Assembly (NCBI RefSeq): GCF_026247885.1
Contig: NZ_CP110921.1
Location: forward strand, 2,351,001 to 2,415,000
Direction: 5' to 3'
From: Methylococcus mesophilus
GTDB taxonomy: Bacteria; Pseudomonadota; Gammaproteobacteria; Methylococcales; Methylococcaceae
Length of the DNA stretch: 64,000 nucleotides
In this document: positions 10,868-49,036 of the stretch, piece by piece
Position numbering within the stretch: the stretch's first letter is position 1
Layout: every line of letters starts with the position of its first letter
Translations under genes and position numbers: made by a program
Notes under the pieces: model-generated
Database searches by the model: none
The model's input: the letters and a program-made list of their open reading frames with translations, nothing else
Told to the model about the DNA's origin: nothing

Positions 10868-11116
10868 TCAAGCGGAATCGGCCAGACGGCTCCATTCCGC
10901 CGGCGTATAGACTTTCATGCTGATGGCGTGGAGGGCACCGGTGGACAAAGGCTCGGTGACGGTAGCCAGAACCTTCTGCTGCCGTTTGACCGAGTTCAGG
11001 CCCTCGAACGCCTCGCCGATGATCACCGCAGAAAAACTGCAGCCCTCGCCTTCCACCCGGACTTCACAGCCCGGAATACCCGTTTCGATGAGCGCGCGGA
11101 CTTCGGCGATTTCCAT
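10868..11116 (-). CDS. BolA family protein
   Basis: An 82-residue BolA/IbaG-like protein. It starts MEIAEVRALIETGIPGCEV, has the central FSAVIIGEAFEGLNSVKRQQKV segment and ends with LHAISMKVYTPAEW; the SV+RHQ-like helix and the C-terminal strand are family features. BolA proteins bind a [2Fe-2S] cluster jointly with monothiol glutaredoxins and help traffic Fe-S clusters. The gene for a CGFS glutaredoxin ends 6 bases upstream, so the pair is encoded together inside the nif/isc series. The ATG at 11116 follows the glutaredoxin stop directly. Confidence 0.9.
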   Translation of the reverse strand: MEIAEVRALIETGIPGCEVRVEGEGCSFSAVIIGEAFEGLNSVKRQQKVLATVTEPLSTGALHAISMKVYTPAEWSRLADSA

Positions 11117-11121
11117 GGGCT

Positions 11122-11454
11122 TTAACCTTCTGCCTGTCCGGCGACGGCGGCATCGAGCAGGGTCTTCAACTCGCCGCTGGCCGACAGTTCGCTGACGATG
11201 TCGCTGCCGCCGACCAGTTCGCCGCCGATGAAGAGCTGCGGGAAAGTCGGCCACTGGGAGATGCTCGGCAGCTTCTCCCGGATGGACGGCGCCGCCAGGA
11301 TATTCACGTAGGCGAACGGCACGCCGGCGGACTGCAGGCAGGACACGGCCTTGGCGGAAAATCCGCACTGGGGCATCTCCGGTACGCCCTTCATGTAAAG
11401 GATGACCGGATGTTTTGCGATCTGGTCGCGGATGGTGTCTTCGATATTGCTCAT
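11122..11454 (-). CDS. grxD: Monothiol glutaredoxin, Grx4 family
   Basis: A 110-residue monothiol glutaredoxin with the CGFS active site at residues 30-33 (PQCGFSAKAV), the cis-Pro segment WPTFPQLFIGG and the glutathione-binding GGSDIV. CGFS glutaredoxins hold a bridging [2Fe-2S] cluster with glutathione and pass it to apo-proteins, often with BolA. Here the gene is directly followed by a bolA gene, and both lie among ferredoxins and nif genes. The symbol grxD follows the E. coli Grx4 name. Confidence 0.92.
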   Translation of the reverse strand: MSNIEDTIRDQIAKHPVILYMKGVPEMPQCGFSAKAVSCLQSAGVPFAYVNILAAPSIREKLPSISQWPTFPQLFIGGELVGGSDIVSELSASGELKTLLDAAVAGQAEG

Positions 11455-11691: not shown

Positions 11692-12000
11692 TTACAAGCC
11701 GGACGCGAAGCCCAGCAGCTCGACGGTGATGTCCTCGTCGCCGGTGACTTTCGCCTGGCACGCCAGGCGGGACTTGGAGCCGACGCCGACGATCGTGTCC
11801 AGTTTGGCGTTCTCTTCGGCGCCGATCTTGGACACGCTCTTGCGGCCGGTCTGCAGGAAGATGTGACAGGAGCCGCACTGGGCGTTGCCGCCGCACTTGT
11901 GCATGATGGCCTCGCCGGCTTCCATGATGAGTTCGAGCAGGGATGCGCCTTCCCGTGTCTCAATGGTTTTTCCGGCAGGCTGGATGGTCAGGGTAGACAT
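11692..12000 (-). CDS. [2Fe-2S] ferredoxin, nif-linked
   Basis: A 102-residue plant-type [2Fe-2S] ferredoxin. The ligand pattern CGGNAQCGSC supplies three cysteines at about residues 36-45 and SRLACQ a fourth near residue 83. The N-terminal MSTLTIQPAGKTIETREGASLLEL segment is typical of the beta-grasp fold. It is close in layout to another ferredoxin in the nifB operon (43115-43444), which also has CGGHARCGEC. It probably donates electrons or clusters in nitrogenase maturation; the exact partner is not known. Confidence 0.88.
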   Translation of the reverse strand: MSTLTIQPAGKTIETREGASLLELIMEAGEAIMHKCGGNAQCGSCHIFLQTGRKSVSKIGAEENAKLDTIVGVGSKSRLACQAKVTGDEDITVELLGFASGL

Positions 12001-12054: not shown

Positions 12055-12543
12055 TCAAGCGGCGCTCCCTTCCGCAAAAGCCCGGATCACGGAAGCGCCG
12101 ACGCTGTCGTTCCGGTCCAGCTCGCCCAGCTTGGCCAACAGGCGTTCGCAGTCCTCCCGCTCGCCCCTGCGCAGCCGGATGAAGGCCAGCGCCTTGAGCG
12201 AGAACAGGTAGAAATGCTGCGGCGCATCGTAGCGCTGCCAATCGACGGTGCCGGGCGTCAATGCCTCGATGTCGTTCGGAAAACCGCCTTGCAGCGCCGC
12301 CGCCTCCAGCGCCATCCGTACGACCCGCTCGGCATCGGCCAGGCGTCCCTTGTAGAAATAGAACTTGTACATCGAGAAATAGACCGACAAGGCCTCGGGC
12401 GCCTCGGCGTGCGCCTGCCGCAAGTAGGCTTCGGCCTGTTCGGTGTCGGCGTAGGCGCTCATCGCCTGCTCCAGGAGGCCTCCCACCTGAGCGGGCACCT
12501 CGCCGGCATAGAACGAACGCATGGGATCGGCGCTGGCGGCCAT
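12055..12543 (-). CDS. TPR-like protein, paralogue of 48085-48645
   Basis: A 162-residue helical protein with tetratricopeptide-like repeats: AEAYLRQAHAEAPEALSVYFSMYKFYFYKGRLADAERVVRMAL, with the conserved pattern of small and aromatic residues, then a second repeat around FSLKALAFIRLRRGEREDCERLL. A very similar arrangement, including the phrase FYFYKxRLAxA and a Phe/Leu-rich LF(T/S)LK, is present in the protein at 48085-48645 in the nifB operon. The two are therefore paralogues placed in different nif transcripts. They probably serve as adaptors for a complex; the target is unknown. Confidence 0.75.
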   Translation of the reverse strand: MAASADPMRSFYAGEVPAQVGGLLEQAMSAYADTEQAEAYLRQAHAEAPEALSVYFSMYKFYFYKGRLADAERVVRMALEAAALQGGFPNDIEALTPGTVDWQRYDAPQHFYLFSLKALAFIRLRRGEREDCERLLAKLGELDRNDSVGASVIRAFAEGSAA

Positions 12544-12556
12544 CGTCCGGCTCCCG

Positions 12557-12883
12557 TCAGCTCCAGAGCGCGGCCGGGGCGAGCAGCCTTTCGACCGGCC
12601 GGTCGTTCTTCAGATGTTCTTCGATGATCTCGGACACGTCTGCCGGACTCACCTTGGAATACATCACGCCCTCCGGATAGACCAGGACGGTCGGCCCGAG
12701 ATCGCAGGTGCCCAGGCAGCCGGTGCTGGTCAGCGCGAACTGGCCGTAGAGCTGGCCGGCCTCGAACTGCTGCATGAAGGTCTGGAACACCGCGGTGGAA
12801 CCGAGCTGGCCGCAGGAACCGCGCGGATGGCCGGGCGGACGGGTCTGGGCGCAGACGAAGACGTGCTTACTGGGTTTTGGCAT
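12557..12883 (-). CDS. Thioredoxin-like [2Fe-2S] ferredoxin
   Basis: A 108-residue protein of the thioredoxin-fold [2Fe-2S] ferredoxin family (Shethna protein I type). It starts MPKPSKHVFVCAQTRPPGHPRG, with the first Cys at residue 11 and the second in GSCG near residue 24, followed by STGCLGTCDLGPTVLVYPEGV with the last two cysteines. The pattern fits the known four-ligand arrangement. The ATG at 12883 is chosen because MPKPSKHVFVC is the usual family start and a GAGG-like site precedes it. Likely a nitrogenase-associated redox carrier. Confidence 0.88.
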   Translation of the reverse strand: MPKPSKHVFVCAQTRPPGHPRGSCGQLGSTAVFQTFMQQFEAGQLYGQFALTSTGCLGTCDLGPTVLVYPEGVMYSKVSPADVSEIIEEHLKNDRPVERLLAPAALWS

Positions 12884-12914
12884 GAAAAGTCCTCTCCTTT
12901 GTTGAACAATCGTT

Positions 12915-12942
12915 GGCTCCCACTCCAAGAGGGAGAGGGGAG
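12915..12942. repeat. Short CCCTCTCCC-type palindromic repeat
   Basis: The spacer between nifW and the thioredoxin-like ferredoxin gene contains ctcccactccaagagggagagggga, a short version of the purine/pyrimidine palindromes at 7435 and 8448. Nothing else is visible in this 64-base gap. Confidence 0.45.
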
Positions 12943-12947
12943 AAATC

Positions 12948-13286
12948 TCAGGCCCGCTGGCCGCGCGTGGACAGGCTCGCTTTCATGCTGTCCAGCGAGA
13001 TGCTCTTGCCTTCCTGATCCTGGAACACCTTGAACACCTTTTCCTGGGCCGCGTTCGATTTCACGAAGTCATCGTGGGCCTGGCTCAGCAGCGACTTGCA
13101 GGTCGCCATGGCGGTGGCCTCGTCCATGTCGTCCGGAATCGGGCTTCGGTTCAGGTACTGGTTGAAGCGCTTCAGGATGTGCAGCCGGTTGACGTGCACC
13201 ACCGAGGGCTCGTACTCGACGCCGAAGAAGTCGAGGAATTCCTCGGCTGCGGAAAAACTTTGTATGCGCTGCAACACCGGATTCAT
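12948..13286 (-). CDS. nifW: Nitrogenase-stabilising protein NifW
   Basis: A 112-residue protein that fits NifW in length and sequence. It has an [17 protein letters not shown] start, [16 protein letters not shown] in the first half, and [26 protein letters not shown] in the second. NifW associates with the MoFe protein and is thought to protect or stabilise it, with loss causing oxygen-sensitive nitrogenase in other diazotrophs. The gene lies directly after nifV on the same strand, as in many nif clusters. Confidence 0.92.
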
Positions 13287-13324: not shown

Positions 13325-14479
13325 TCAGCCGAACAGACCCGGGCGCGGCTGGGACGACACCGAGGTTTCGGCGTAGAACAGCTTCAGCTCGGTCTCGCTG
13401 GGCGGCCGCTTGGTCTGGCAGGCGTGGATGCGGATGCGCTTGAGCAGCCTGCCGGCGTCCACCTCGGTCAGGTCGATCCCGAGCAGGCCGAAGCTCCGCT
13501 TCACCGCGTGAGTGCCGGAATGTTTGCCCAGCACCAGGCGGTGCTCGCGGCCGAGCTCCTTCGGGTCCACACCCTGGTAGTTGATGACGTTCTTGAGCAG
13601 GCCGTCGACATGGATGCCGGCTTCATGGGTGAACACCGCCTCGCCGACGATGCTCTTGTTGGCCGCCACCGGCCGGCCGGAAGCGGTGGCCACCAGCCCG
13701 GAAATTTCGGGAAAATGATCGACGGCGATGCCGGTATCGATGCCGTAAAGCTGGTGCAGGGCCATCACGGTTTCCTCGATGGCTGCATTCCCGGCTCGCT
13801 CTCCCAGGCCATTGACCGTGGTGTTCACATGACTCGCCCCGGCCTGCACCGCCATCAGGGTATTGGCCGTCGCCAGCCCGAAGTCGTTGTGGGCGTGCAT
13901 CTCGATTTCCAGATCGGTGCCTCCGGCCAGCCGGCGAATGCGCTCGAAGGTCGACATCGGCTCCAGCAGGCCCAGGGTGTCGGCGAAGCGGATGCGCCGG
14001 GCGCCGGCTTGCTGCGCCGCCTGGGCGACCTGCGCCATGAAATCGGGATCGGCGCGCGATGCGTCCTCGCAGCCGACGCAGACTTCCATGCCGGTATCCA
14101 ACCCCAGCTTCACGAAACGGTCGATGCTCGCCAGCACCCATTCACGGGTCCGGTTCACCTTGTGGCGGAGATGGATGTCCGATACCGGAATCGACAGGTT
14201 CACCAGATCGGCCCCGCAGCCGGCGGCCGCGGCCAGATCCTGCTCGCACATCCGGCCCCAGACCATCAGCCGGGTCGGCAACCCCAGGCCCGCGATCGCC
14301 CGGATCACCTCCTGCTCCTCGGCGCCCATGACCGGTATGCCCACTTCCATTTCCGGCACGCCGGCCCGAGCCAGCGCCTGGGCGATGGAAAGCTTTTCCT
14401 CGGCGGTGAATGCGACCCCGGCGGTCTGCTCGCCATCCCTGAGGGTGGTGTCGTTGATGGTGACCGTGTGCATAGCCAT
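13325..14479 (-). CDS. nifV: Homocitrate synthase NifV
   Basis: A 384-residue enzyme of the 2-isopropylmalate/homocitrate synthase family. It condenses acetyl-CoA with 2-oxoglutarate to homocitrate, the organic ligand of FeMo-co. Signatures are [12 protein letters not shown] near the N-terminus, the metal-binding [27 protein letters not shown], and [12 protein letters not shown]. The NifV-type length, without the regulatory domain of LeuA, and the nif context settle the assignment. The ATG at 14479 has GAGG six bases upstream and lies just after the fdx stop, so it appears to sit at the end of the isc genes in one transcript. Confidence 0.95.
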
Positions 14480-14487
14480 GGCTGACC

Positions 14488-14826
14488 TCACTTGAGTTCC
14501 TTCGCCAGGTTACGGCTGTAGCGTGGCAGTTCGATGACCAGATCGGCCTTGCTCACCACCGCCTGACAGGCCAGCCGGGAATGCGGCTCGAGACCCCAGG
14601 CCCGGTCCAGCATGTCGTCCTCGGCGTCGTCGGCAGCGTTCAGCGAGTCGTAGCCTTCCCGCACGATGACGTGGCAAGTGGAGCAGGCGCAAGCCATTTC
14701 ACAGGCATGCTCGATTTCGATGCCGCCGTGCAGCAAGGCATCGCAGATACTCTGACCGTAACTGGCCTTGATGACGGCGCCTTCCGGGCACAGTTCGGCA
14801 TGGGGCAACACCTTGATCTGCGGCAT
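14488..14826 (-). CDS. fdx: ISC-type [2Fe-2S] ferredoxin Fdx
   Basis: A 112-residue adrenodoxin-type ferredoxin. Ligand cysteines are in [10 protein letters not shown] and the distal SRLACQ, as expected of E. coli Fdx. It supplies electrons for Fe-S cluster assembly on IscU. The order hscB-hscA-fdx matches the standard isc operon, and here nifV follows. Confidence 0.94.
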
Positions 14827-14828
14827 GC

Positions 14829-16688
14829 TCAGACTCCCAGGCTGTCCAGCTTCTGGCCGGTGAGCGCGGCCTTGATGCTGTAATCCATTCGGCGCCCGGC
14901 GAATTCGGTGCTGGCGTCGTTCAACGCATCGGCGGCATTCTTGATCGCTTGCCAGTCCGAGCCCTCCATCGCACCTTTGAGAACCTGCAAGCCTTTCACC
15001 AGGACCTCGAGTTCTTCCTCGCTGAGAAGCCCGCCGTCCTCGGCCAATGCCGACTCGGTGGCCTCGACCAGACGCGAGGCTTCGACCTTCTGCTCCTGCA
15101 GCCGCCGCGCTTCCAGGTCGTCGCGGGCGTGCAGGTACGAATCCTCGATCATCCGCGCCACTTCACCGTCGCTAAGCCCGTAGGACGGCTTGACCTCGAT
15201 CCTTGCCTCGACTCCGCTGGTCTGTTCGGCTGCAGTCACGTTGAGGAGCCCGTCGGCATCGACCTGGTAAGTCACCCGGATGCGCGCCGCGCCTGCCGCC
15301 ATCGGCGGGATGCCGCGCAGCTCGAAACGCGCCAGCGAGCGGCATTCGCTCACCAGCTCGCGCTCGCCCTGCACCACGTGGATGCTCATGGCGGTCTGAC
15401 CGTCTTTCCAGGTGGTGAATTCCTGGGCCCGCGCCACCGGAATCGTGGTGTTGCGGGGCACGATCTTTTCGCACAGGCCGCCTAAGGTTTCGATGCCCAG
15501 CGACAGCGGAATGACGTCGAGCAGCAGCCAATCACCGCCGGCGCGGTTGCCGGCCAGCATGTTGGCCTGCATGGCGGCGCCCAGCGCCACCACCTTATCC
15601 GGATCGAGATCGGTGAGCGGCGTTTGCTGGAAGAATTCGGCCACCGCCTCCCGGATGCAGGGCATGCGGGTCGCGCCGCCGACCAGGACCACGCCCTTGA
15701 TGTCGTCGATGGCGAGTCCGGCGTCGCGCAGCGCCTTCCGGACCGGGGCGAGCGTTTTCTTCACCAAGCCGGCCGTCAGCTCCGCAAAGGTATCGCGGCT
15801 CAGCGTCAGCGCGATCCGGGAACCGTCCGACAGCGCGGTGTCGATGGCCGCCCCGGCCCGGTCGGAAAGCTGCTCCTTGGCGACGCGGGAGGCAGCCATC
15901 AGCAGCCGCGCGTCGCTGCTGGACAGCCCGCTGAAACCGCTCTGTGCGAGCAGCCAGTCGTAGACCGCGCGGTCGAAATCATCGCCCCCCAGGGCCGGGT
16001 CGCCGTTGGTGGCGAGCACTTCGAATACGCCGCGGGTGAGCTTCAGCACCGAGATGTCGAAGGTGCCGCCCCCTAAGTCGTAGACTGCATACACCCCCTC
16101 GGCGGCGTTGTCGAGCCCATAGGCGACCGCCGCAGCGGTCGGCTCGTTCAGCAGCCGGAATACCTCCAGCCCGGCGAGCTTTGCGGCGTCCTTGGTCGCC
16201 TGGCGCTGCGCCTCGTCGAAATAGGCCGGCACCGTGATCACCGCGCCCGCCAGTTCACCGCTCAGTTCCGCGACCGCCCGGTCGCGCAGAACCTTGAGAA
16301 TTTCCGCCGATACCTGAACCGGACTGATCCGGCCGGCGCGGGTGTCGAACTGCACCATGCCCTCGCCTTCAACGAACTTGTAGGGCGCCCCGTGGTGCTC
16401 GGCGATGTCGTTCAGGCCCCGCCCCATGTAGCGCTTAACCGAAACGAAGGTGTTCTCGGGGTCTTCGCTCTGCCGGGCCTTGGCCTCGTAGCCGACCTCG
16501 GCAGCCCCGCCGTCGAGGTAGCGCACTACCGAGGGGAGCAGGGTCCGGCCCTGAGCGTCGCCGAACACCACCGTCCGCTCGTCCCGGACGGTGGCCACCA
16601 GCGAATTGGTCGTACCCAGGTCGATGCCTACCGCGAGCCGCTGTTGCGGCTTTACGGCGGCGCCGGGTTCGGAAATCTGTAGCAGCAT
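14829..16688 (-). CDS. hscA: Fe-S chaperone HscA (Hsp70 family)
   Basis: A 619-residue Hsp70 homologue dedicated to Fe-S assembly. It accepts IscU from HscB, reads the LPPVK motif of IscU and uses ATP to promote cluster transfer. Visible features are the nucleotide-binding [13 protein letters not shown] near residue 22, [29 protein letters not shown] and the substrate domain with [13 protein letters not shown]. Length is that of HscA rather than DnaK. The ATG shares one base with the hscB stop (TGATG), giving tight coupling. Confidence 0.96.
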
Positions 16689-17221
16689 CAGTCCTCCAGC
16701 AGGGCGTGCGCCTGATCGAGATCACGTTTGAGTTTTTCCAGGAAGGCGAGCTGGCGCACCAGCACCGCGGCGTCCGGATGCGATTGCTTGATGTCGAGCA
16801 TGGCGCCGAGCGATTCGATCAGATGATCCATTTCCTTCTTCAGCCGAAAGCCGAGCCGGTCCAGCGCCGCTTCACTGCGGCCGGCGATGGCGTCCTGCAT
16901 TTCCTCCCGCCATTCGATCTGCTCCAGCAGGAATTCCGCCGGCATCGCCGTGTTGTCCTCCTCCCGCGTATCCACGCCATGGATCCTGAGCAGGTAACGC
17001 GCCCGGTCCAGCGGACGCTTCAAGGTCTGATAGGCCTCGTTGGCGAAAGTCGCCCATTGCAGAGACAGGCGTTTTTCCGCATCGCTCAGATGAGCCGCCT
17101 TGTCCGGATGGACACGGGCCTGCAGCTCCAGGTAATGGCTATCGAGCACGCTCAAGTCCAGCCGAAACATTTCGGGCATCTGGAAAAATTCGTAAAAATT
17201 ACGGGGCGCCATTTCGCTCAT
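16688..17221 (-). CDS. hscB: Co-chaperone HscB
   Basis: A 177-residue J-domain protein that recruits IscU to HscA and stimulates its ATPase. The J-domain carries the HPD tripeptide in [12 protein letters not shown], and the C-terminal helices ([17 protein letters not shown]) are the IscU-binding part. The ATG at 17221 is preferred because an AGGAG site lies 8 bases upstream; the in-frame ATG 6 bases earlier would be only 2 bases from it. It overlaps hscA by one base. Confidence 0.93.
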
Positions 17222-17232
17222 AGCCATCGCTC

Positions 17233-17556
17233 CTAAACGTTGAAACTCTCGCCGCAACCGCATTCGTTCTTGACGTTGGGGTTGTTGAACTTGAAGCCCT
17301 CATTCAAGCCTTCCCGCACGAAATCCAGCTCGGTGCCTTCCAGATAGACCAGGCTTTTCGGATCGACCAGCACGGTGACACCAAAACTTTCGAACAACTG
17401 GTCCTCCGGCGCCGGCTCGTCCACGAACTCCAGGGTGTACGCCAGGCCCGAACAGCCCGAAGTCTTGACGGCGAGCCGCAGCCCGACGCCCGCACCGCGC
17501 GCGGTCAAATGCTTCTGCACCTGGACCGCCGCCTTTTCTGTCAGGGTTACTGCCAT
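17233..17556 (-). CDS. iscA: A-type Fe-S carrier IscA
   Basis: A 107-residue A-type scaffold or carrier with the three conserved cysteines: Cys in TSGCSGLAY and the C-terminal CGCGESF. It carries or transfers Fe-S clusters to apo-proteins and can bind iron. It sits between the ErpA-like gene and hscB in the isc order. The start at 17556 ([10 protein letters not shown]) matches the usual family beginning. Confidence 0.94.
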
Positions 17557-17582: not shown

Positions 17583-17984
17583 TCAGTGGGACGAGCAGCT
17601 CGAACCGCCGCCACCTTCGACGGAGAAGGAACTGCCGCAACTGCAGGAAGAGGTCGCATTCGGGTTCTTGATGACGAAACGCGAACCTTCCAGCCCTTCC
17701 TGGTAATCGATTTCGGCGCCCTGCAGATATTGCAGACTGGTGGGGTCGACCAGCAGGGTCACGCCGTCCTTCTCCACCGCCGTATCGTCCTCGTTCACGG
17801 CCTCCTCGAACGAGAAGCCGTACTGGAATCCCGAGCAGCCGCCGCCGGAGACATAGACCCGGAGCTTCAGCGCCGGATTGCCCTCCTCGGCGATCAACTC
17901 GTTGACCTTGGCCGCCGCATTGCCGGTGAAAATCAATGCAGGGCCGGCCGGCGTCAGATCGACAATGCTGGTCATGGCTGTCAT
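17583..17984 (-). CDS. Second A-type Fe-S carrier, ErpA-like
   Basis: A 133-residue A-type carrier with Cys in [12 protein letters not shown] and a C-terminal CSCGSSF, followed by an unusual Gly/Ser/Cys-rich tail ([10 protein letters not shown]). The [12 protein letters not shown] form is that of ErpA rather than IscA. Standard isc operons contain one A-type gene, so the tandem here is extra. The ATG at 17984 has GAGGAA 7 bases upstream. The additional Cys in the tail might bind metal, but this is only a suggestion. Confidence 0.9.
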
Positions 17985-18000
17985 AACGGTTTCCTCGCCT

Positions 18001-18420
18001 TCAGGCCGCCGATTTGCAGATTTCGTAGCCTTCGTCGGCCACGCCTGTTTTTGCCTTGTAGTCCGAGACCGCAGCCTTGATCGCATCCTCGGCCAGCACC
18101 GAGCAGTGGATCTTCACCGGCGGCAGCGCCAGCGCCTCGGCAATCTCGGAGTTCTTGATGGCCAGGGCTTCGTCGACGGTCTTGCCCTTGACCCATTCGG
18201 TGACCAGCGAACTGGAGGCGATCGCCGAGCCACAGCCGTAGGTCTTGAACTTGGCATCCTCGATCACGCCTTCGTCGTTGATCTTGATCTGCAGCTTCAT
18301 CACGTCGCCGCAGGCCGGAGCGCCCACCACGCCGGTACCTACGCCGTCTTCGTCCTTGTCGAAGGAGCCGACGTTGCGGGGATTTTCGTAGTGGTCGATG
18401 ACTTTATCGCTGTACGCCAT
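18001..18420 (-). CDS. iscU: Fe-S cluster scaffold IscU
   Basis: A 139-residue IscU scaffold, on which [2Fe-2S] clusters are built from IscS sulfur. The conserved cysteines are in [22 protein letters not shown] and [13 protein letters not shown], and the LPPVK motif recognised by HscA is present just before the last Cys. No NifU gene is visible in this window, so IscU may serve nitrogenase here. A short extension at the C-terminus (GYEICKSAA) adds a fourth Cys. Confidence 0.96.
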
Positions 18421-18460
18421 TGTTGTTCTCCTGATTGGATGGTGAAGGGCTTCGGGCGCC

Positions 18461-19672
18461 TTAATGCGCTGCGGCCCACTGAACGGTGTTGAGATCGATC
18501 CCGTCCTTGTACATCTCCCACAGGGGCGATATCTCGCGCAGGCGAGCGACCTTGTCCTTGATCAGGGAGATGGCGAAATCCACGTCCTCCGCCGTGGTAT
18601 AGCGGCCCAGGGTGAAGCGGATCGAGCTGTGGGCCAGTTCGTCGCTGCGCCCCAGGGCGCGCAATACGTAGGAAGGCTCGAGGCTGGCCGAGGTGCAGGC
18701 CGAGCCGCTGGACACCGCCAGATCCTTGATTGCCATCATCAAGGACTCGCCCTCCACGTAGTTGAAGCTGATGTTCAGGTTGTGCGGCACCCGCTGTTCC
18801 AGGTCGCCGTTGACGAACACCTCTTCCATGTCCTTGAGACCGGCCAGCAGCTTGTCGCGCAGCCCGCGGATGCGTGCATTCTCCGCCGCCATTTCTTCGC
18901 GGGCGATGCGGAAGGCCTCGCCCATGCCGACGATCTGGTGCGCGGCCAGGGTGCCGGAGCGCAGTCCCCGCTCGTGGCCGCCGCCGTGCATCTGCGCCTT
19001 GAGCCGGATGCGCGGCTTGCGCCGCACGTACAGCGCGCCGATGCCCTTGGGGCCGTAGGTCTTGTGGGCGGAGAAGGACATGAGGTCGACCGGCAGCTTT
19101 TCCAGGTCGATTTCAACCTTGCCGGTGGACTGGGCGGCATCGACGTGGAAGATCACACCGCGCTCCCGGCAGATCTCGCCGATCGCCGCGATGTCCTGGA
19201 TCACCCCGATCTCGTTGTTGACGTGCATGACGGACACCAGCGAGGTATCGGGCCGGATCGCCGCCTTGAAAGCCTCCAGGTCCAGCAGGCCGTTCGCCAT
19301 CGGCTCGAGGTAGGTCACTTCGAAGCCCGCGGACTCCAGCTCGCGCATGGTATCGAGCACTGCCTTGTGTTCGGTCTTCACCGTGATGAGATGGCGGCCC
19401 TTGGTCTGGTAGAACTCGGCCGCGCCCTTGATGGCCAGGTTGTCCGATTCGGTCGCGCCGGAGGTCCAGACGATTTCCCGGGGATCTGCGTTGACCAGCT
19501 TCGCCACTTCCTCCCGCGCGTTCTCCACCGCCTGCTCGGCGGTCCAGCCGAAGCTGTGGGAACGGCTGGCCGGGTTGCCGAAGTTTTCCGTCAGGAACGG
19601 GATCATCTTCTCGGCAACACGTGGGTCGACCGGCGTCGTTGCCGAGTAATCGAAATAGACCGGTAGCTTCAT
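18461..19672 (-). CDS. iscS: Cysteine desulfurase IscS
   Basis: A 403-residue pyridoxal phosphate enzyme that strips sulfur from cysteine and hands it to IscU. Key features are [12 protein letters not shown] at the start, the PLP Lys in [19 protein letters not shown], and the catalytic loop [21 protein letters not shown]. There is no iscR gene before it. Instead the upstream region has a -24/-12 element and two NifA-type sites, which is unusual for a housekeeping isc operon. A separate nifS gene lies at 45173-46321. Confidence 0.96.
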
Positions 19673-19726
19673 TGCATGTTCTCCGAGTTCGCCATGAGGA
19701 TAGGCGGTTTGCCTTGATCTCTATCT

Positions 19727-19742
19727 TGCAAACCTCGGGCCA
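19727..19742 (-). promoter_or_regulatory. Sigma-54 (-24/-12) promoter before iscS
   Basis: Read leftward, the sequence TGGCCCGAGGTTTGCA has the GG and GC dinucleotides with the 10-base spacing required by sigma-54, one mismatch in TGGCAC and a perfect TTGCA. It lies 55 bases before the iscS start. Two TGT-N10-ACA sites lie farther upstream, as expected for NifA-driven promoters. Confidence 0.75.
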
Positions 19743-19808
19743 CTCTCGAGAATAACGCTAACAAACGGATTTTATTAACTTTAATCCGCAATAAGACGAA
19801 AACCGGTT

Positions 19809-19824
19809 TGTCTCGTTGTCGACA
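19809..19824. promoter_or_regulatory. NifA upstream activator site (TGT-N10-ACA)
   Basis: TGT at 19809 and ACA at 19822 are exactly 10 bases apart, matching the NifA binding consensus. The site is about 67 bases upstream of the -24 element of iscS. Confidence 0.65.
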
Positions 19825-19932
19825 AGGAGCGGCCGGCCCGGCGCCCTTCCAAAGCGCCCGGCGCGCAAAGAGGACCTGTATGGTACGGATTACGAAGGTT
19901 TGAGCAGGAAGGATGGGTGGTGCCGGTGTTTT

Positions 19933-19948
19933 TGTCGGATTTGCTACA
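19933..19948. promoter_or_regulatory. Second NifA-type site upstream of iscS
   Basis: TGT-CGGATTTGCT-ACA lies about 190 bases upstream of the iscS -24 element. One such match is expected by chance in about 4 kb, so two in this 380-base spacer suggest real activator sites. The rest of this spacer (19673-20051) holds only the clpX terminator. Confidence 0.5.
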
Positions 19949-20051: not shown

Positions 20052-21320
20052 CTAGGCTGAGACGCACTGCTTCTCGTCGGTCCTGTAAACCAGATAGGGC
20101 TCGGTTTCGCCCCGGATCACCTTCTCGTCGATCACAACCTTGACGACGTCCTCGGCGGACGGCAATTCGTACATGGTGTCGAGCAGGGCATGCTCGACGA
20201 TGGTCCGCAGGCCCCGCGCGCCGGTCTTGCGCTCCATGGCGCGCCGGGCGATGGCTCCCAGGGCCTCCGGCAGGATTTCCAGCTCGCAGCCTTCCATTTC
20301 GAACAACCGGGCGTACTGCTTGACGAGCGCATTTTTCGGCTCGGTCAGGATGCTGACCAGCGCCGCTTCGTCGAGTTCCTCGAGCGTCGCCACGACCGGC
20401 AGGCGGCCGATGAATTCCGGTATCAGGCCGTAGCGGACCAGGTCTTCGGCTTCGACCCCCGCCAGGACCTCCCCGAGGTTGGTGTTCTCTTCCTTGCTTT
20501 TCACTTCAGCCGAGAAGCCGATACCGCTCCTTTCCGAACGGGAACGTATGGTCTTGTCGAGCCCGGCGAAGGCGCCGCCGCAGATGAACAGGATGTTGGC
20601 GGTGTTGACCTGCAGGAACTCCTGCTGCGGGTGCTTGCGCCCACCCTGCGGCGGTACCGAGGCGACGGTACCCTCCATCAGCTTGAGCAGGGCTTGCTGC
20701 ACGCCTTCCCCGGACACGTCGCGGGTGATGGATGGGCTGTCGGACTTGCGCGAAATCTTGTCGATCTCGTCGATGTAGACGATCCCGTGCTCGGCCTTTT
20801 CCACGTCGTAATCGCAGGCCAGCAGGAGCTTCTGGATGATGTTCTCGACGTCCTCGCCGACGTACCCGGCTTCGGTGAGGGTGGTGGCGTCGGCGATGGT
20901 GAAGGGGACGTCCAGCACCCGCGCCAGGGTCTCAGCCAGCAGAGTCTTGCCGGAACCCGTCGGACCAATCAGGAGGACGTTGCTCTTGGCCAGTTCCACA
21001 TCGTTCTTGAAGGTTCTGGCCTTGAGGCGCTTGTAATGGTTGTACACGGCGACCGACAGGATGCGCTTGGCCTTGTCCTGGCCGATGACGTATTCGTCCA
21101 GAATCGCCTTCATTTCCTTCGGCTTGGGAAGGCCCTCTGCTGCACCGGCCTCGCTGCCCTGCAACTCTTCGCGGATGATGTCGTTGCACAGCTCGACGCA
21201 TTCGTCGCAGACGAACACGGCGGGGCCTGCGATGAGTTTCCTGACTTCGTGCTGGCTCTTGCCGCAAAACGAGCAATACAGCAGCTTGCCGGACTCTTTG
21301 TTTTTCCTGTCTTCGCTCAT
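20052..21320 (-). CDS. clpX: ATP-dependent Clp protease ATPase subunit ClpX
   Basis: A 422-residue AAA+ unfoldase that feeds substrates to ClpP. The N-terminal zinc-binding domain shows CSFCGKS and CDECVELC. Walker [13 protein letters not shown] lies near residue 120, Walker [11 protein letters not shown] follows, the IGF loop [12 protein letters not shown] contacts ClpP, and the C-terminal small domain is complete. Length is standard. It follows clpP at the usual short distance, and ends at a clear terminator. Confidence 0.97.
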
Positions 21321-21407
21321 GGCGCTTACTCCCCTGGTTAGGAACGGTGTTTGGCTGTCACTCTCCCTTTGACTGGCAAGTTGTGCGCCAAACTGCGAGC
21401 CAGCCGC

Positions 21408-22055
21408 TCAGGCCGCGCCAGCTGCGCGATTCACGAGTACTTTGTCGATCAGGCCGTATTCCACTGCGTCGTTTCCGCCCATGAAATTGTCGCGATCGGT
21501 ATCAACCTGGATCTTTTCGATGGGCTGGCCGGTATGCTGCGCCAGGATTTTATTGAGCCGTTCACGCACCGCCAGGATCTCACGGGCATGGATATCGATG
21601 TCGGAAGCCTGACCCTGGAAACCGCCCAGCGGCTGGTGGATCATGATCCGCGAATGCGGCAGCGAATAGCGCTTGCCCGCCGCGCCCCCGGCCAGCAGCA
21701 GGGCGCCCATGCTGGCGGCCTGGCCGACGCAGAGCGTGCTGACGTCGGGCTTGATGAACTGCATCGTGTCGTAAATCGCCAGCCCCGCCGTCACCAGCCC
21801 GCCAGGCGAATTGATGTAGAGGTGGATGTCCTTGTCGGGATTCTCCGATTCCAGGAACAGCAACTGGGCGATCACGAGATTGGCCATGTAATCCTCGACC
21901 TGGCCCACCAGGAAGATGACCCGCTCCTTCAGCAGCCGCGAATAGATGTCGAAGGCCCGCTCGCCGCGCGCCGACTGCTCCACCACCACCGGAACCAGTC
22001 CGCCGGCGGCCCGTGTTGCGTTGTCCATGCCGTACCTATCCTTCATGAAGTTCAT
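21408..22055 (-). CDS. clpP: ATP-dependent Clp protease proteolytic subunit ClpP
   Basis: A 215-residue serine protease. The active-site Ser is in [11 protein letters not shown], the His in [14 protein letters not shown], and the Asp in [19 protein letters not shown]. The protein forms the double heptamer degraded-substrate chamber of ClpXP. The first residues ([10 protein letters not shown]) include three possible starts; processing normally removes this region. clpX follows downstream, but tig, the usual upstream neighbour, is absent here. Confidence 0.97.
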
Positions 22056-22500: not shown

Positions 22501-23571
22501 TCAGCAGCCGGCGTCGGAAGCCGGCGGCTCACCATCCTGATCGGCGAATACCAGCAGCGGACCTTCGGCATTCCCGAAATGGATGTCCCCCAACGCCTTC
22601 TGGTCGATTACCGCGACGACAAGTAAGGCGATCCGGTGCTCTCGGCCATCCTTAGCCGCCGAGACGACGAGGCCGACGCTTTCGTCGAAACCCGGCCGAT
22701 ACAGCCTGGTGCCCGGTACCGGGACCTCGGAATAGTCGGCATAAGCCAGAAACACCTTGCGCTTGAGCTGGCCCCGGTAATGCAGGCGGGCGATCACCTC
22801 TTGTCCGGGGTAACAGCCTTTCTTGTAGCTCAGGCCGCCGAGGACTTCGAGGTCGAGCATCTGGGGAATGAACTCGCCGGCGGTATCGGCCACAACGTGC
22901 GGGATGCCGGCCAGTATATCCAGCAACGCCCAGGCACCCGTTCCCGCCGGCCTGGCCGCCACTGCGAGCTTTTCCCAGAGGGCGATCACGGCCCGGGGGC
23001 TTCCGACCGCCAGCCAGCGCGACCGCGGCTCGCTGCCCAGGGCAATCAGAGTACAGTCACCGACCACCGCAGTCCCGCCCCTCTGCTCCGGCAAGGCCAA
23101 GCCCAGCGTTTCCGGGATCCCGGCACCGGACAACCCGATCCGGGCCAGCGTACCGCTGGCATCGGCGATAGCCGCCTTGGTGCGCAGGAGGAACATCCTC
23201 AGCCGCGCGATGACGCCCGGCAGCAGTTCTTCCGGCAACAGCAGGTAATAGGCTCCGTCCCGCAGGAACAGCCAGAACGTGGCCTGGATCCGTCCCTTGC
23301 CGTCGCACCAGCTGGTGAACTGGCCCAGGGTCTCCGATACCAGGCGTACGTCGCCAGTCAGCATGCTGCCCAGGAATTTGCCAGCCTCCTCGCCCTTGAC
23401 CTCGATCAGTCCGAAATGGGACAGGTCGGCGACGAGACTCCCACCCAGGGCGAGTTCCGCGCCGTCGCCCGCCGCAGGAACGAAGCGGTCCAGAAAATCC
23501 GCCCATTCGGTGGGAGCATTCGGGGCGGCACTCCCGGCCATCTGCACTTTCAACGCTTCACCGGCTGCCAT
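22501..23571 (-). CDS. ygfZ: Folate-binding Fe-S maturation protein YgfZ
   Basis: A 356-residue protein of the YgfZ/GcvT family. The signature KKGCYPGQEVIARLHYRG near residue 255 contains the conserved Cys needed for function. YgfZ is tetrahydrofolate-dependent and supports the repair or synthesis of certain Fe-S enzymes. The gene start overlaps the end of nifQ by 22 bases, so it may be read as the last gene of the nifENX-fdxB-nifQ transcript. It could equally have its own promoter inside nifQ. Confidence 0.92.
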   Translation of the reverse strand: MAAGEALKVQMAGSAAPNAPTEWADFLDRFVPAAGDGAELALGGSLVADLSHFGLIEVKGEEAGKFLGSMLTGDVRLVSETLGQFTSWCDGKGRIQATFWLFLRDGAYYLLLPEELLPGVIARLRMFLLRTKAAIADASGTLARIGLSGAGIPETLGLALPEQRGGTAVVGDCTLIALGSEPRSRWLAVGSPRAVIALWEKLAVAARPAGTGAWALLDILAGIPHVVADTAGEFIPQMLDLEVLGGLSYKKGCYPGQEVIARLHYRGQLKRKVFLAYADYSEVPVPGTRLYRPGFDESVGLVVSAAKDGREHRIALLVVAVIDQKALGDIHFGNAEGPLLVFADQDGEPPASDAGC

Positions 23572-34710: not shown

Positions 34711-34726
34711 TGCAACCGGTGTGCCA
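34711..34726 (-). promoter_or_regulatory. Sigma-54 (-24/-12) promoter of nifHDK
   Basis: Read leftward, TGGCACACCGGTTGCA carries perfect TGGCAC and TTGCA boxes with the required spacing. It is the best sigma-54 match in the window and lies 152 bases before nifH, implying a long leader. Confidence 0.88.
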
Positions 34727-34805: not shown

Positions 34806-34821
34806 TGTCCACAACACTACA
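34806..34821. promoter_or_regulatory. NifA upstream activator site 1, nifH/divergent gene
   Basis: TGT-CCACAACACT-ACA matches the NifA consensus. It is 80 bases upstream of the nifH -24 element and about 120 bases from the divergent -24/-12 element at 34941. Confidence 0.7.
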
Positions 34822-34834
34822 AAACCGCACTGCT

Positions 34835-34850
34835 TGTAGGGAACAACACA
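34835..34850. promoter_or_regulatory. NifA upstream activator site 2, nifH/divergent gene
   Basis: TGT-AGGGAACAAC-ACA lies 29 bases from site 1 and 91 bases before the divergent promoter, so both sites can act on either side. Confidence 0.7.
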
Positions 34851-34940: not shown

Positions 34941-34956
34941 CGGCACATCGATTGCT
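34941..34956 (+). promoter_or_regulatory. Divergent sigma-54 promoter for the receiver-like gene block
   Basis: CGGCACATCGATTGCT has the GG and GC positions, one mismatch in TGGCAC and an intact TTGCT, and lies 115 bases before the ATG at 35071. It shares the NifA sites with nifH. Confidence 0.7.
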
Positions 34957-35070: not shown

Positions 35071-35496
35071 ATGCAGATAGGCGTCGATAGTGAAAGAGCA
35101 GTAGACGACCGACGTGTCTTCGTCGTCGACGACGATGAAATCACCAGCGCCGCGCTGCAGTTCATGCTGCACGACGAGATCGAAACCCATGAGCTGAGCA
35201 GCCTCGAAGCCGCCTATGCCAAGGCCGTGGACTGGAAGCCCGCGGTACTGCTGCTGGGGTTGGGCATCGTCAAGGCCCGGGGCATCGAGGTGCTGGAAGA
35301 AATTCGCGCCCGGCTGGAGGACATCAAGATCATCGTGGTGACCGAGACCGCGACCGATCCCCTGGCGCAGCAATGCCTCAAGCAGGGTGCGAACTCCCTG
35401 CTGGCCAAACCCCTGACCATCGAAAAGGCGCGTCAGAAGGTGGACATGCAACTTGGCCGCAAGGTCAATCTGGCCATCCCCGTCGTCGTCACCTGA
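35071..35496 (+). CDS. Receiver-like protein lacking the phospho-acceptor Asp
   Basis: A 141-residue single-domain protein with the fold of a response-regulator receiver: the acidic pocket VFVVDDDE at residues 16-23, the Thr in IIVVTETATDP and the Lys in SLLAKPL (Lys113) are conserved. The phospho-acceptor Asp, expected in the LLLDL strand, is replaced: the sequence is LLLGLG with Gly63. It therefore cannot be phosphorylated at the normal site and is a pseudo-receiver. It is the first gene divergent from nifH, under a shared NifA region, with a GGAG ribosome site. It might bind a partner constitutively; the target is unknown. Confidence 0.8.
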   Translation: MQIGVDSERAVDDRRVFVVDDDEITSAALQFMLHDEIETHELSSLEAAYAKAVDWKPAVLLLGLGIVKARGIEVLEEIRARLEDIKIIVVTETATDPLAQQCLKQGANSLLAKPLTIEKARQKVDMQLGRKVNLAIPVVVT

Positions 35497-45172: not shown

Positions 45173-46321
45173 TCAGGCCGCCTCCGCCACCATAGTCCGC
45201 ACGATATCCGGCAGCAATTCGCACACGGCGTCCACTTCGGCCTCGGTGGTGTAGCGGCTCAGCGAGAACCGGATCGTGGCCAGCGCCCCTTCGGCGCCCA
45301 GCCCCATCGCGGTCAGCACATGGGAGGGCTCGGTGCCGCCGGCGCTACAAGCCGCACCGGCGGAGGCGCAAATCCCGGCGCGGTCCAGTTTGTCCAGCAC
45401 CAGTTCCGCTTCGACGGCGCCGAGGTTGAAACTGGACGTCCCGGCCACCCGAGGCGCGCCGCCGCCGTTGACCGAAGCGCCCGGCAACGCCGTCAGCAGC
45501 CGGGTTTCCAGGCGGTCGCGCAGGCGGGCGACGCCGTCGCCGCCGGTCGCCAAGTACCCCTGCGCCAGTTCCGCAGCCGCGCCCAAACCGACGATACCCG
45601 GCACATTCTCGGTGCTACCGCGGCGTCCGCGCTCCTGGTGGCCGAACAGCAGCGGGGGCAGCTTGCGTCCCTTGCGCACGAACAGCGCACCGATGCCCTT
45701 GGGGCCGTGCAGCTTGTGTCCGGAGAGGGACAGGAAATCCAGCGGAATCTGGCTCAGGTCGATCGGCAGCTTGCCGACGGCCTGCACGGCGTCGCAATGG
45801 AACAGTACGCCCCGGCTCGCCGCCAGCGCCGCCGCCTCTTCGATGGGAAACACTACGCCGGTTTCGTTATTGGCCCACATCAGGCTCAGCAGGGCGGTGC
45901 CGGGCGTGATCGCGGCATCCAGCAATGCCGGATCGAGCAAACCATGGCCGTCGACCGGCAGCCTGACCACCTCGAGCCCCAGCGCTTCGAGATGCGCCAG
46001 CAGCAGCAAGGTAGCGGGATGCTCCACCGCGCTGGTCACCACCCGGCGCTTGTCCGGCGCCAAGGCCAGAGCGCCCAGAATGGCCTGATGGATGGATTCG
46101 GTCCCGCCGCTGGTGAACACAATCTCCGCCGGCGAGACGCCCAGCAGGGACGCCACTTTCCCACGCGCGGCGATGGCCTCCATCTTGGCGGCCTCGCCCA
46201 GATGATGCTTGCTGGACGGATTGCCGTAATGCGCCTTGAGACAGGCCGTCATCGCTTCCACGCATTCCGGCGCAGGCGGCGTCGTGGCATTGTTGTCCAG
46301 GTAAATCGAGGTCTCGCTCAT
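45173..46321 (-). CDS. nifS: Cysteine desulfurase NifS
   Basis: A 382-residue PLP enzyme that releases sulfur from cysteine for nitrogenase Fe-S clusters. The start MSETSIYLDNNATTPP, the PLP Lys in SLSGHKLHGPKGIG and the catalytic loop ASAGAACSAGGTEPSHVL are those of NifS rather than IscS. The ATG overlaps the upstream stop by 4 bases. No nifU lies beside it; scaffold function may come from IscU. Confidence 0.93.
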   Translation of the reverse strand: MSETSIYLDNNATTPPAPECVEAMTACLKAHYGNPSSKHHLGEAAKMEAIAARGKVASLLGVSPAEIVFTSGGTESIHQAILGALALAPDKRRVVTSAVEHPATLLLLAHLEALGLEVVRLPVDGHGLLDPALLDAAITPGTALLSLMWANNETGVVFPIEEAAALAASRGVLFHCDAVQAVGKLPIDLSQIPLDFLSLSGHKLHGPKGIGALFVRKGRKLPPLLFGHQERGRRGSTENVPGIVGLGAAAELAQGYLATGGDGVARLRDRLETRLLTALPGASVNGGGAPRVAGTSSFNLGAVEAELVLDKLDRAGICASAGAACSAGGTEPSHVLTAMGLGAEGALATIRFSLSRYTTEAEVDAVCELLPDIVRTMVAEAA

Positions 46322-46659
46322 TGCCAGAACCGCCTTTTCGGGTCTTCGTTCAGGAGCGCCAGGATCTGCTGTAGAGACTGGTATTCGCCGTGCATGATCC
46401 AATGTCCGATCTCATGATCCTTATGGTACAGCCACCAGCAGCCTCTGTTCGGTTTGAACTCCAGCCGGGCGATGTCGATGACGCCGCCGTTGGGATCGAT
46501 GTTGCGCGAGCAGCACGAACTCTGGATCAGATAGCCGTCCTCGGTCGGATGCACCTCGGGGGTGACGTAGCGGTAACGCTTGCGGTCCTTGATGGAACGC
46601 TCGATACGTTTGCGGTCCAGTTCGTTGGGTTGAGGATTCGCCGCGCTGATGCCGCCCAT
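46318..46659 (-). CDS. Small nif-linked protein (DUF3024-like)
   Basis: A 113-residue protein starting MGGISAANPQPNELDRKRIERS. The centre has LIQSSCCSRNIDPNGGVIDIARLEF and an end KPNRGCWWLYHKDHEIGHWIMHGEYQSLQQIL, which resembles DUF3024 members. The role is unknown. The ATG at 46659 has a strong GGAGG site, unlike the one at 46701. It overlaps nifS by 4 bases. Confidence 0.65.
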   Translation of the reverse strand: MGGISAANPQPNELDRKRIERSIKDRKRYRYVTPEVHPTEDGYLIQSSCCSRNIDPNGGVIDIARLEFKPNRGCWWLYHKDHEIGHWIMHGEYQSLQQILALLNEDPKRRFWQ

Positions 46660-48652: not shown

Positions 48653-49036
48653 TCAGGCGCTCTTGATGGGGATGCTGGAAATGGACACCGCGGCTTCGGC
48701 CGGAACGGCACCCGGCGCGCTGGTGCTGCAGGTGCCGCAGCCGGTCGCTTTCGGATCGATGAACACCAAACCGCTCTGCAATGGAGTGTCCTTGAAATCC
48801 ATGGTCACACCCTGCAACAGCAAGCGGCTCTCCGCAGGCAGGAACAGCTTCAGCCCTTGCACGGTGACAACGGCATCGCCCGGCAAGGGCGCGGCTTCGA
48901 CGCTGAATTCCGACGCCAGACCCGAACAGCCGCCCGGGCTGACCAGCAGCCGGAAGCCGGCATCCGGTCCGGCCCCGCCGAAACGCACCATGCGCTGAAT
49001 GAACTTTTCCGCACTCGGAGTGATGGTTAGATCCAT
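48653..49036 (-). CDS. Nif-linked IscA/HesB-type protein
   Basis: A 127-residue A-type protein with the first Cys in SPGGCSGLASEF and the C-terminal pair as CGTCSTS in ATGCGTCSTS. It is a third A-type carrier in the window and the one in the nifB operon, as in many nif clusters. It likely delivers Fe-S units to NifB or another nif protein. The Ala/Ser-rich tail (PAEAAVSISSIPIKSA) is longer than in IscA. Confidence 0.88.
   Translation of the reverse strand: MDLTITPSAEKFIQRMVRFGGAGPDAGFRLLVSPGGCSGLASEFSVEAAPLPGDAVVTVQGLKLFLPAESRLLLQGVTMDFKDTPLQSGLVFIDPKATGCGTCSTSAPGAVPAEAAVSISSIPIKSA

Follow-up and report, generated by a model that had tools for sequence, protein, structure and literature searches.

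An ISC gene set inside the nif cluster of Methylococcus mesophilus seems to stand in for NifU

Introduction

ISC is regarded as the general system of iron-sulfur cluster assembly and NifU as the nitrogenase specialist. In Azotobacter vinelandii the nifU-nifS genes of the NIF system lie beside nifV, as the isc genes do here. That system is dedicated to nitrogenase, the role of NifU being described in two accounts (PMC11605450, PMC13382767), and the locus described here would share this dedication. NifU is a three-domain scaffold (scaffold, ferredoxin and Nfu domains), whereas the scaffold here is a one-domain IscU accompanied by HscA/HscB. According to one of these accounts, IscU replaces NifU partially in A. 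vinelandii; NifQ is said to be charged mainly by NifU, with limited delivery by IscU, and ordinary ISC would therefore be a poor substitute in that organism (PMC11605450).

Two further systems bear comparison. Paenibacillus polymyxa WLY78 is described as a diazotroph which, like M. mesophilus, lacks nifU and uses other Fe-S genes; in that account it has no IscU and a nif cluster free of isc genes, whereas here ISC lies inside the cluster (PMC8038749). A listing of 2011 places hsc genes within the NifA/sigma-54-dependent nif cluster of Herbaspirillum (PMC3093359).

Results

A complete ISC set joined to nifV and nifW

The window, a 64-kb stretch of the M. mesophilus genome, contains iscS-iscU-erpA-iscA-hscB-hscA-fdx followed by nifV-nifW in one run with no iscR at its head (Table 1). 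This is the gene set that the initial annotation had described, NifW scoring just under its NCBIfam cut-off. IscS, IscU, IscA, HscB, HscA and Fdx, the proteins by which an ISC system is recognised, are encoded together and all exceed their NCBIfam cut-offs. No Rrf2-family match falls within the genomic span of the window, and IscX of Methylococcus sp. EFPC2, used as a query, found no match in the window at E<=1e-5. The interval first assigned to the locus, 17583..19948, takes in the promoter through erpA and falls short of the whole block, which reaches at least 12557. The listed start of nifV overlaps the stop of fdx.

The operon has the protein families and nearly the gene order of housekeeping ISC (iscRSUA-hscBA-fdx). 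It differs in lacking iscR, in the insertion of erpA, in its junction with nifV, in its sigma-54 element and in the C-terminal tail of its IscU. The position of erpA between iscU and iscA is found in nif-linked isc operons and not in the housekeeping isc operons that were fetched. A NifS-like desulfurase gene further along the window is a member of the nif cluster that the earlier description had not listed.

Table 1. Positions of the operon, its neighbours and its promoter elements in the 64-kb window
Feature	Position	Strand	Basis and remarks
BolA-family protein	10868..11125	-	Pfam BolA; downstream in 18/19 loci of the order
Grx4-family monothiol glutaredoxin, cluster carrier	11122..11454	-	TIGR00365 over cut-off; downstream in 18/19 loci of the order
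[2Fe-2S] ferredoxin	11692..12000	-	Pfam Fer2
TPR protein	12055..12543	-	Pfam TPR_19; same position in 18/19 loci of the order (synteny)
Thioredoxin-like [2Fe-2S] ferredoxin	12557..12928	-	Pfam PF01257 over cut-off; NCBIfam fdxn_Azotob 124 bits, below cut-off 195
nifW	12948..13286	-	NCBIfam NifW 111.5 bits, slightly below cut-off 117
nifV, homocitrate synthase	13325..14491	-	NCBIfam 529 bits, cut-off 463
fdx, ISC [2Fe-2S] ferredoxin	14488..14826	-	NCBIfam fdx_isc 168 bits, cut-off 132
hscA, chaperone	14829..16688	-	NCBIfam 897 bits, cut-off 709
hscB, co-chaperone	16688..17227	-	NCBIfam 228 bits, cut-off 198; Pfam HSCB_C
iscA	17233..17556	-	NCBIfam TIGR02011 168 bits, cut-off 151
erpA-type A-type carrier	17583..17984	-	NCBIfam ErpA 183 bits, cut-off 117
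iscU, scaffold, 139 aa	18001..18420	-	NCBIfam iscU 228 bits, cut-off 192; the genome's only IscU
Codons of IscU C-terminal tail ending GYEICKSAA	18004..18069	-	Alignments
iscS, cysteine desulfurase	18461..19672	-	NCBIfam IscS 745 bits, cut-off 643; SSGSACTS motif present
sigma-54 -24/-12 element TGGCCCGAGGTTTGCA	19727..19742	-	0 mismatches to TGGCNC-N5-TTGCW
Proximal NifA-type site TGT-N10-ACA	19809..19824	-	Exact match; 82 bp from the -24/-12 element
Distal NifA-type site TGT-N10-ACA	19933..19948	-	Exact match
nifH -24/-12 element, internal positive control	34711..34726	-	NifA-type sites 34806-34821 and 34835-34850; nifH over cut-off
NifS-like cysteine desulfurase, nifB-nifZ part of nif cluster	45173..46402	-	NifS 470 bits, below cut-off 531

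The promoter region of iscS

Pattern matching recovered the claimed -24/-12 element and both TGT-N10-ACA sites, all upstream of iscS, and their layout is that of nifH in the same window. Single promoter motifs are not rare in the window; the ordered pair is. Allowing <=1 mismatch, the -24/-12 pattern matches 18 times against 10.55 expected (5 of 100 shuffles reach 18), and single TGT-N10-ACA matches also occur elsewhere. Joint sites, defined as a sigma-54 site that TGT-N10-ACA precedes by 50-250 bp in the same orientation, number 5, against a shuffle mean of 0.13 and a maximum of 3 in 300 shuffles. They precede nifB, nifH, nifE and iscS, the fifth being a divergent one at 34941.

The same arrangement recurs across the order. 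All 19 distinct loci, which come from several genera with 6 from one genus, have a -24/-12 element upstream of iscS (<=2 mismatches to TGGCAC-N5-TTGCW) and at least one TGT-N10-ACA site, with two or more in 14. (L045, L046 and L047 have contigs equal in length to those of L141, L132 and L138, with which they share their genomes, and are excluded from distinct counts; L155, with no iscS/iscU match in the stretch taken, stands outside them.) In shuffled sequences, 0.00 of 22 loci carried both kinds of site. Upstream of iscS in housekeeping loci we found a sigma-54 element in 2/19, TGT-N10-ACA in 3/19 and both in 1/19 (L162), a weak control because this region usually holds iscR, so that the shuffles are the better one. 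The motif matches are individually weak, which would fit a promoter match by chance in front of an operon that is constitutive or otherwise regulated; an ordered pair at every distinct locus of the order makes such an accident hardly credible. NifA control of the operon, and its use for nitrogenase, are predictions from sequence. With NifA and NifL of EFPC2 as queries no match was found in the 64-kb window, which counts against a module dedicated to nitrogenase.

NifU, ISC and SUF in the whole genome

The M. mesophilus genome is complete, in one contig with completeness 100, and it encodes IscU, HscB and HscA once each. HscB gives a single match at E<=1e-8; the second-best HscA match (626 bits, below the cut-off of 709) is taken as DnaK. 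The initial annotation had seen no nifU in the window. Nor does any NifU match over cut-off occur elsewhere in the complete genome, its NifU_N matches being the operon IscU and SufU only, and it contains no second full isc operon; these are the two findings that the annotation had named as weakening its replacement idea. The reported lack of iscR holds at the operon and not beyond it: one exists elsewhere (G000:C1:2921943-2922338), beside iscS and iscA only, and no iscU, hscBA or fdx follows this partial iscR-iscS-iscA locus. SUF is also represented by a full operon, accompanied by a SUF regulator of the Rrf2 type.

Housekeeping ISC together with NifU elsewhere in the genome is rejected by the whole-genome searches, and an artefact of incomplete assembly is unlikely given the single contig and completeness of 100. 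Masking of isc genes beside iscR is likewise rejected, since six iscR neighbourhoods and the SUF locus are free of N-runs >=5, as are all of the 44 loci examined.

Distribution of ISC and NifU in the order

Among 151 sampled genomes of the order, ISC and NifU are mutually exclusive. HscB (E<=1e-8) occurs in 19, always beside nifV on a common strand and contig with 2.2-2.5 kb between the matches, and never with NifU; of the remaining nifV genomes, 60/61 have NifU. Together with the genome search, this pattern supports the earlier suggestion that ISC acts in place of NifU. It also bears on the proposal that SUF matures nitrogenase, as in Paenibacillus, and that the nif-linked ISC supports only ferredoxins or electron transport. 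SUF is present in this genome, and P. polymyxa is described as assembling nitrogenase Fe-S clusters with non-NIF genes in the absence of nifU while carrying a complete suf operon (PMC8038749). That Paenibacillus, however, is described without an IscU homologue or isc genes in its nif cluster (PMC8038749), and in the order ISC occupies the place of the missing NifU in 19/19 genomes, which leaves the proposal very unlikely.

In Methylococcus sp. EFPC2 (G025) a contig of 89,615 bases (C2), the plasmid NZ_CP070492.1, bears the sole IscU (E<=1e-25) and the sole HscB (E<=1e-8) along with nifHDK, nifENX, nifB, nifA and nifL. An iscX is present on the same plasmid. Dual use of the operon, NifA-induced for nitrogenase and also serving general Fe-S proteins via a basal second promoter, seems unlikely when the same ISC can be plasmid-borne, when HscB is found in 0/71 genomes of the order without NifV (E<=1e-8), when a full SUF operon with a regulator is available and when a weak scan finds no sigma-70-like site before iscS. 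It does draw support from the operon being the genome's only source of canonical IscU and HscBA, and from the separation of ISC from nifV elsewhere in the class: in a sample of 30 nifV genomes from other orders, 21 have HscB over cut-off and none of these has it adjoining nifV.

Nif-linked ISC outside the order

Other organisms share the arrangement. We found a similar nif-linked ISC in another 17 genomes (16 betaproteobacterial), where it generally lacks hscB and accompanies a housekeeping ISC. (L070, with NifU over cut-off, and L091, with one IscU and no full nif-linked set, were searched alongside and stand outside the 17.) The betaproteobacterial sets (Herbaspirillum, Hydrogenophaga, Paraburkholderia aromaticivorans pBN1 and others) read, as here, iscS-iscU-erpA-iscA-hscA-fdx and then nifV and nifW; the M. 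mesophilus operon has the features of this type, namely erpA between iscU and iscA, no iscR, nifV downstream and a sigma-54 element. Further likenesses are (i) a sigma-54-like element before iscS in 17/17 loci (<=2 mismatches to TGGCAC-N5-TTGCW), against 1.25 expected from shuffles; (ii) absence of NifU over cut-off; and (iii) the IscU cysteine tail in 16/17. Unlike M. mesophilus, only one of the 17 has hscB inside the operon (L094), 16 have a separate HscB and IscU elsewhere in the genome, and strict NifA-type sites lie within 450 bp in 4 of the 17 loci (1.36 expected).

The cysteine tail of IscU

In alignments, a cysteine tail at the IscU C-terminus is present in 33/38 nif-linked sequences versus 0/18 housekeeping ones; the nif-linked exceptions, L126, L142, L063, L162 (G410) and L168, count against it as a general mark of nif-linked IscU. 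Eight of 36 tails were compared with 11 NifU; over an apparent likeness that spans ~11 residues, the tail cysteine aligns to the first ferredoxin cysteine of NifU in 7/8, L080 being four columns off. Speculatively, the tail may serve in docking on Nif clients or in cluster conversion. L168 is a lone IscU beside nifV and its sequence is identical to that of L082.

Discussion

An ISC set inside the nif cluster and behind a nif-type promoter seems to replace NifU in M. mesophilus, and we judge it likely that an ISC machine has here been converted to a nitrogenase-maturation module. From the promoter and the spacing, NifA and sigma-54 RNA polymerase would transcribe iscS through nifW during N2 fixation, the transcript perhaps extending to grx4-bolA. 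On the model of ISC and NifU as known elsewhere, clusters would be built on IscU with sulfur from IscS and electrons from Fdx. HscA/HscB would discharge them to IscA, ErpA and Grx4-BolA, and these carriers would serve NifH, NifB, NifQ, NifDK and the nif ferredoxins. SUF probably supplies the general iron-sulfur proteins, a division of labour that we infer. The NifS-like desulfurase retained in the nif cluster counts against so dedicated a module.

The alternation of ISC and NifU, the status of this set as sole ISC in Methylococcaceae and the IscU cysteine tail appear to be new, no earlier account having been found. Diazotrophs whose nitrogenase apparently depends on ISC alone, encoded on a nif plasmid in one case, make the scaffold requirements of nitrogenase directly testable. 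They would also offer an additional gene set for engineering N2 fixation into ISC-containing compartments such as mitochondria.

More tentatively, and with somewhat greater doubt than belief, we suggest a nitrogenase-dedicated ISC lineage spanning Methylococcaceae, Betaproteobacteria and at least one other family of Gammaproteobacteria, its IscU mostly reshaped by a NifU-like cysteine tail and the whole ISC of Methylococcaceae accessory and no longer housekeeping. Such a common nif-linked lineage was compared with relocation of a gammaproteobacterial ISC and with a betaproteobacterial duplication. The housekeeping loci fetched come from 12 of the 17 genomes that have two ISC sets and from 8 of the 21 genomes of the class in which HscB exceeded its cut-off. 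In the HscA tree each of four groups forms one side of a branch, the nif-linked L162 then being filed with the gammaproteobacterial housekeeping set. The five-protein tree unites the nif-linked sets on one side at a support of only 76, alternative groupings not being rejected; AU tests gave p 0.30 for Methylococcales with gammaproteobacterial housekeeping ISC and p 0.35 for betaproteobacterial nif-linked with betaproteobacterial housekeeping ISC (neither rejected), and p 0.068 for Methylococcales with betaproteobacterial housekeeping ISC. L162 is a long branch in the five-protein tree, where it is placed, with weak support (69, 58), among the betaproteobacterial nif-linked sequences.

Results

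An isc operon joined to nifV

The initial annotation described an isc operon running into nifV and nifW behind nitrogen-regulated promoter elements, and this arrangement is present in the window and is real. Two TGT-N10-ACA (NifA-type) sites and a -24/-12 (sigma-54) element precede tightly spaced iscS, iscU, erpA, iscA, hscB, hscA, fdx, nifV and nifW, with the listed start of nifV overlapping the fdx stop. Residues of known functional importance are visible by eye in the translations: the SSGSACTS loop in IscS, three cysteines plus LPPVK in IscU and HPD in HscB. Beyond the 3' end of nifW lie genes for a thioredoxin-like [2Fe-2S] ferredoxin, a TPR protein, a second [2Fe-2S] ferredoxin, a Grx4 monothiol glutaredoxin and a BolA-family protein. 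The window also carries nifHDK, nifEN, nifX, nifQ, nifB and genes for two NifZ proteins and a NifS-like desulfurase. Other features are listed in the table (G and L numbers denote sampled genomes and fetched loci).

Locations of the isc operon and of further features
Feature	Location	Strand	Remarks
isc-nifVW operon with promoter	window, from 19948 down	-	
clpP and clpX	window 20052-22055	-	directly upstream of isc promoter
YgfZ/CAF17-like Fe-S protein	window 22501-23571	-	between nifQ and apaG; same position on EFPC2 nif plasmid
Divergent sigma-54-like element	window 34941-34956	+	one mismatch; faces response-regulator gene at 35071; NifA-type sites 106 and 135 bp upstream
NifS-like cysteine desulfurase	window 45173-46402	-	near two NifZ proteins and a NifT match
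Third A-type carrier	window 48653-49036	-	near nifB; additional to ErpA and IscA of the operon
iscR-iscS-iscA, then ndk	L039:8376-10342	-	own genome
SUF cysteine desulfurase	L003:7967-9430	-	N-terminal extension
Lone IscU adjoining nifV	L168 (G356:C7:36000-50000)		sequence same as L082

The -24/-12 pattern alone is not rare (18 one-mismatch matches in the window versus 10.55 expected). Joint sites, in which a TGT-N10-ACA site lies 50-250 bp upstream of a sigma-54 element that has no more than one mismatch, number five, before nifB, nifH, nifE and iscS and facing a response-regulator gene, versus a mean of 0.13 and a maximum of 3 in 300 dinucleotide shuffles. The nifH intergenic region may fire in both directions. 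Across the order Methylococcales, 21 of 22 iscS upstream regions examined have both elements in the correct order; the single miss (L134) is due to a split iscS hit, and both appear when the first hit part is used as the start. Three of the 22 rows are duplicates; with these removed and L134 included, both elements precede iscS in 19/19 distinct genomes, which are not independent because six belong to one genus. Shuffling gives 0.85 loci of the 22 with the sigma-54 element, 0.96 with the NifA-type site and 0.00 with both. The clpP-clpX pair occurs upstream of the isc promoter in five of six same-genus loci and in none of 13 other stretches fetched; Methylococcus sp. EFPC2 has clpP-clpX-lon elsewhere on its nif plasmid.

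ISC alternates with NifU

Among 151 genomes of the order (NifV and NifU scored over cut-off, HscB at E<=1e-8), NifV occurs in 80, NifU in 61 and HscB in 19. In each of the 19 HscB genomes NifV is encoded on the contig and strand of HscB, the two matches being 2.2-2.5 kb apart; the gene order from iscS to nifW is identical in every locus, and none of these genomes has NifU over the cut-off. NifU is found in 60 of the 61 NifV genomes without HscB. The remaining one (G140) has neither, and a single genome (G092) has NifU but no NifV over cut-off. Within Methylococcaceae, the 29 NifV genomes divide into 18 with ISC and 11 with NifU, and one genus (g5) includes members of both types. This comparison lends good support to the proposal that ISC would serve nitrogenase in place of NifU.

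The initial annotation saw no nifU in the window, and the same holds for the complete genome (4,343,116 bases): no protein reaches the NifU cut-off and the only NifU_N matches are the IscU of the window and SufU. Nor did the genome yield a second complete isc operon. HscB (E<=1e-8) and HscA (over cut-off) are each matched once, and the iscR-iscS-iscA locus elsewhere lacks iscU, hscBA and fdx; its IscS and IscA are 40% and 52-53% identical to the window copies. Matches to iscS and iscA lie near iscR in four of five relatives fetched (L040, L041, L042, L044) and not in L043. SUF is represented by an Rrf2-type regulator, SufB, SufC, SufD, SufS and SufU. The SUF desulfurase scores higher with the encapsulin-cargo desulfurase model (662 bits, cut-off of 800 not reached) than with SufS (608, cut-off reached).

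In EFPC2, contig C2 (89,615 bases) holds the only IscU (E<=1e-25) and the only HscB (E<=1e-8) of the genome. This contig is plasmid NZ_CP070492.1 and also carries nifHDK, nifENX, nifQ, nifB, nifA, nifL, rnf genes, iscX, grxD and bolA. It is hard to regard as housekeeping an ISC set that moves on a plasmid together with nif genes. The third A-type carrier of the window is 87% identical to a protein of this plasmid annotated as an iron-sulfur cluster assembly accessory protein.

Nif-linked ISC beyond the order

A NifV alignment search, from which the best 80 loci were listed, gave at least 20 with iscS, iscU, erpA, iscA, hscA and fdx all upstream of nifV: three from Methylococcaceae and 17 from elsewhere, of which 16 bear betaproteobacterial names and one is unassigned. 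Part of the set is seen on short stretches in three more of the loci listed (L051, L054, L103). Each of the 17 genomes from elsewhere gave two IscU matches (for L079, one is partial), and none has NifU over cut-off. Fifteen have a single HscB, L094 has two and the draft L079 has none; only L094 has hscB within the nif-linked operon. A sigma-54-like element precedes iscS in 17/17 (1.25 expected) and a strict NifA-type site lies within 450 bp in 4/17 (1.36 expected). A named, annotated record, Paraburkholderia aromaticivorans plasmid pBN1, has the same gene order and the IscU tail cysteine described below. The plasmid also has a desulfurase adjoining nifT and nifZ; the window retains its NifS-like enzyme, near NifZ and NifT matches, despite the absence of NifU.

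NifV is found in 33 of 369 genomes sampled from the class, 30 of them outside the order; NifU reaches its cut-off in 18 of these 30 and in none of the other 12. In one of the 12 (G410), an iscS-iscU-erpA-iscA-hscB-hscA-fdx set lies roughly 2.4 kb from nifB and has both a sigma-54-like element and a NifA-type site; its IscU is the only one of that genome. In L168 a lone IscU adjoins nifV; its genome encodes HscB and a further IscU on another contig, and NifU does not reach its cut-off there. It may represent the same replacement in minimal form.

A cysteine tail on nif-linked IscU

A longer C-terminal tail with a cysteine near its end is found in IscU of 17/19 loci of the order, where it fits GY[DEKG][IV]C[KQ][ST]AA at fixed spacing, and of 16/17 nif-linked loci outside it. 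None of 19 loci fetched as housekeeping has it; one of these (L162, from G410) proved to be nif-linked, leaving 18. Overall the tail occurs in 33/38 nif-linked versus 0/18 housekeeping IscU, the 38 including L162 and the lone IscU of L168, which both lack the cysteine. Both IscU copies were compared in 12 genomes, and in 11 of them the tail is confined to the nif-linked one. For 7 of 8 nif-linked sequences included in an alignment, the cysteine lines up with the first cysteine of the NifU ferredoxin domain (EEGxxICKCF), a likeness that may be mimicry, a remnant or coincidence.

Discussion

In an HscA tree and a five-protein tree, the set of the order, the betaproteobacterial nif-linked sets and the housekeeping sets are largely separate. 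The branch uniting the nif-linked sets has support of 76, and rival groupings were not rejected. A single origin is favoured by the shared erpA position, the lack of iscR, the proximity to nifV and the tail of IscU, which is an argument from likeness rather than a test.

That hsc genes can be nif-linked is already known, such genes having been listed in 2011 for the nif cluster of Herbaspirillum, which depends on NifA and sigma-54 (PMC3093359). As far as seen, what is new is (i) the exclusive alternation with NifU; (ii) the sole-ISC status in Methylococcaceae with nif; (iii) the plasmid location in EFPC2; and (iv) the IscU tail. In the passages available, no open-access paper was found to report ISC as a substitute for NifU in Methylococcaceae or to describe the tail, and passages from PMC3916325, PMC3695564, PMC8305402, PMC10623323, PMC3464626, PMC8593673 and PMC2682760 held nothing decisive on the arrangement. 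For Methylococcus capsulatus, the passages located in the genome paper cover nifHDKENX and make no reference to isc (PMC517821). The nif-linked scaffold of Herbaspirillum sp. AP02 (L062) is a one-domain IscU, and therefore the nifU of the 2011 Herbaspirillum paper may be an IscU. On a fosmid from mine drainage, hscA and erpA reportedly lie between nifA and nifB, and the authors found no nifU anywhere on the fosmid (PMC3912193). Not all betaproteobacteria use ISC, since Azoarcus olearius BH72 has nifU within its nif cluster, according to an excerpt (PMC9769520). Excerpts on Azotobacter vinelandii state that NifU is reportedly partially replaceable by IscU and that NifQ is charged mainly by NifU (PMC11605450), and an excerpt of a further paper has GrxD delivering a cluster to NifU (PMC13382767).
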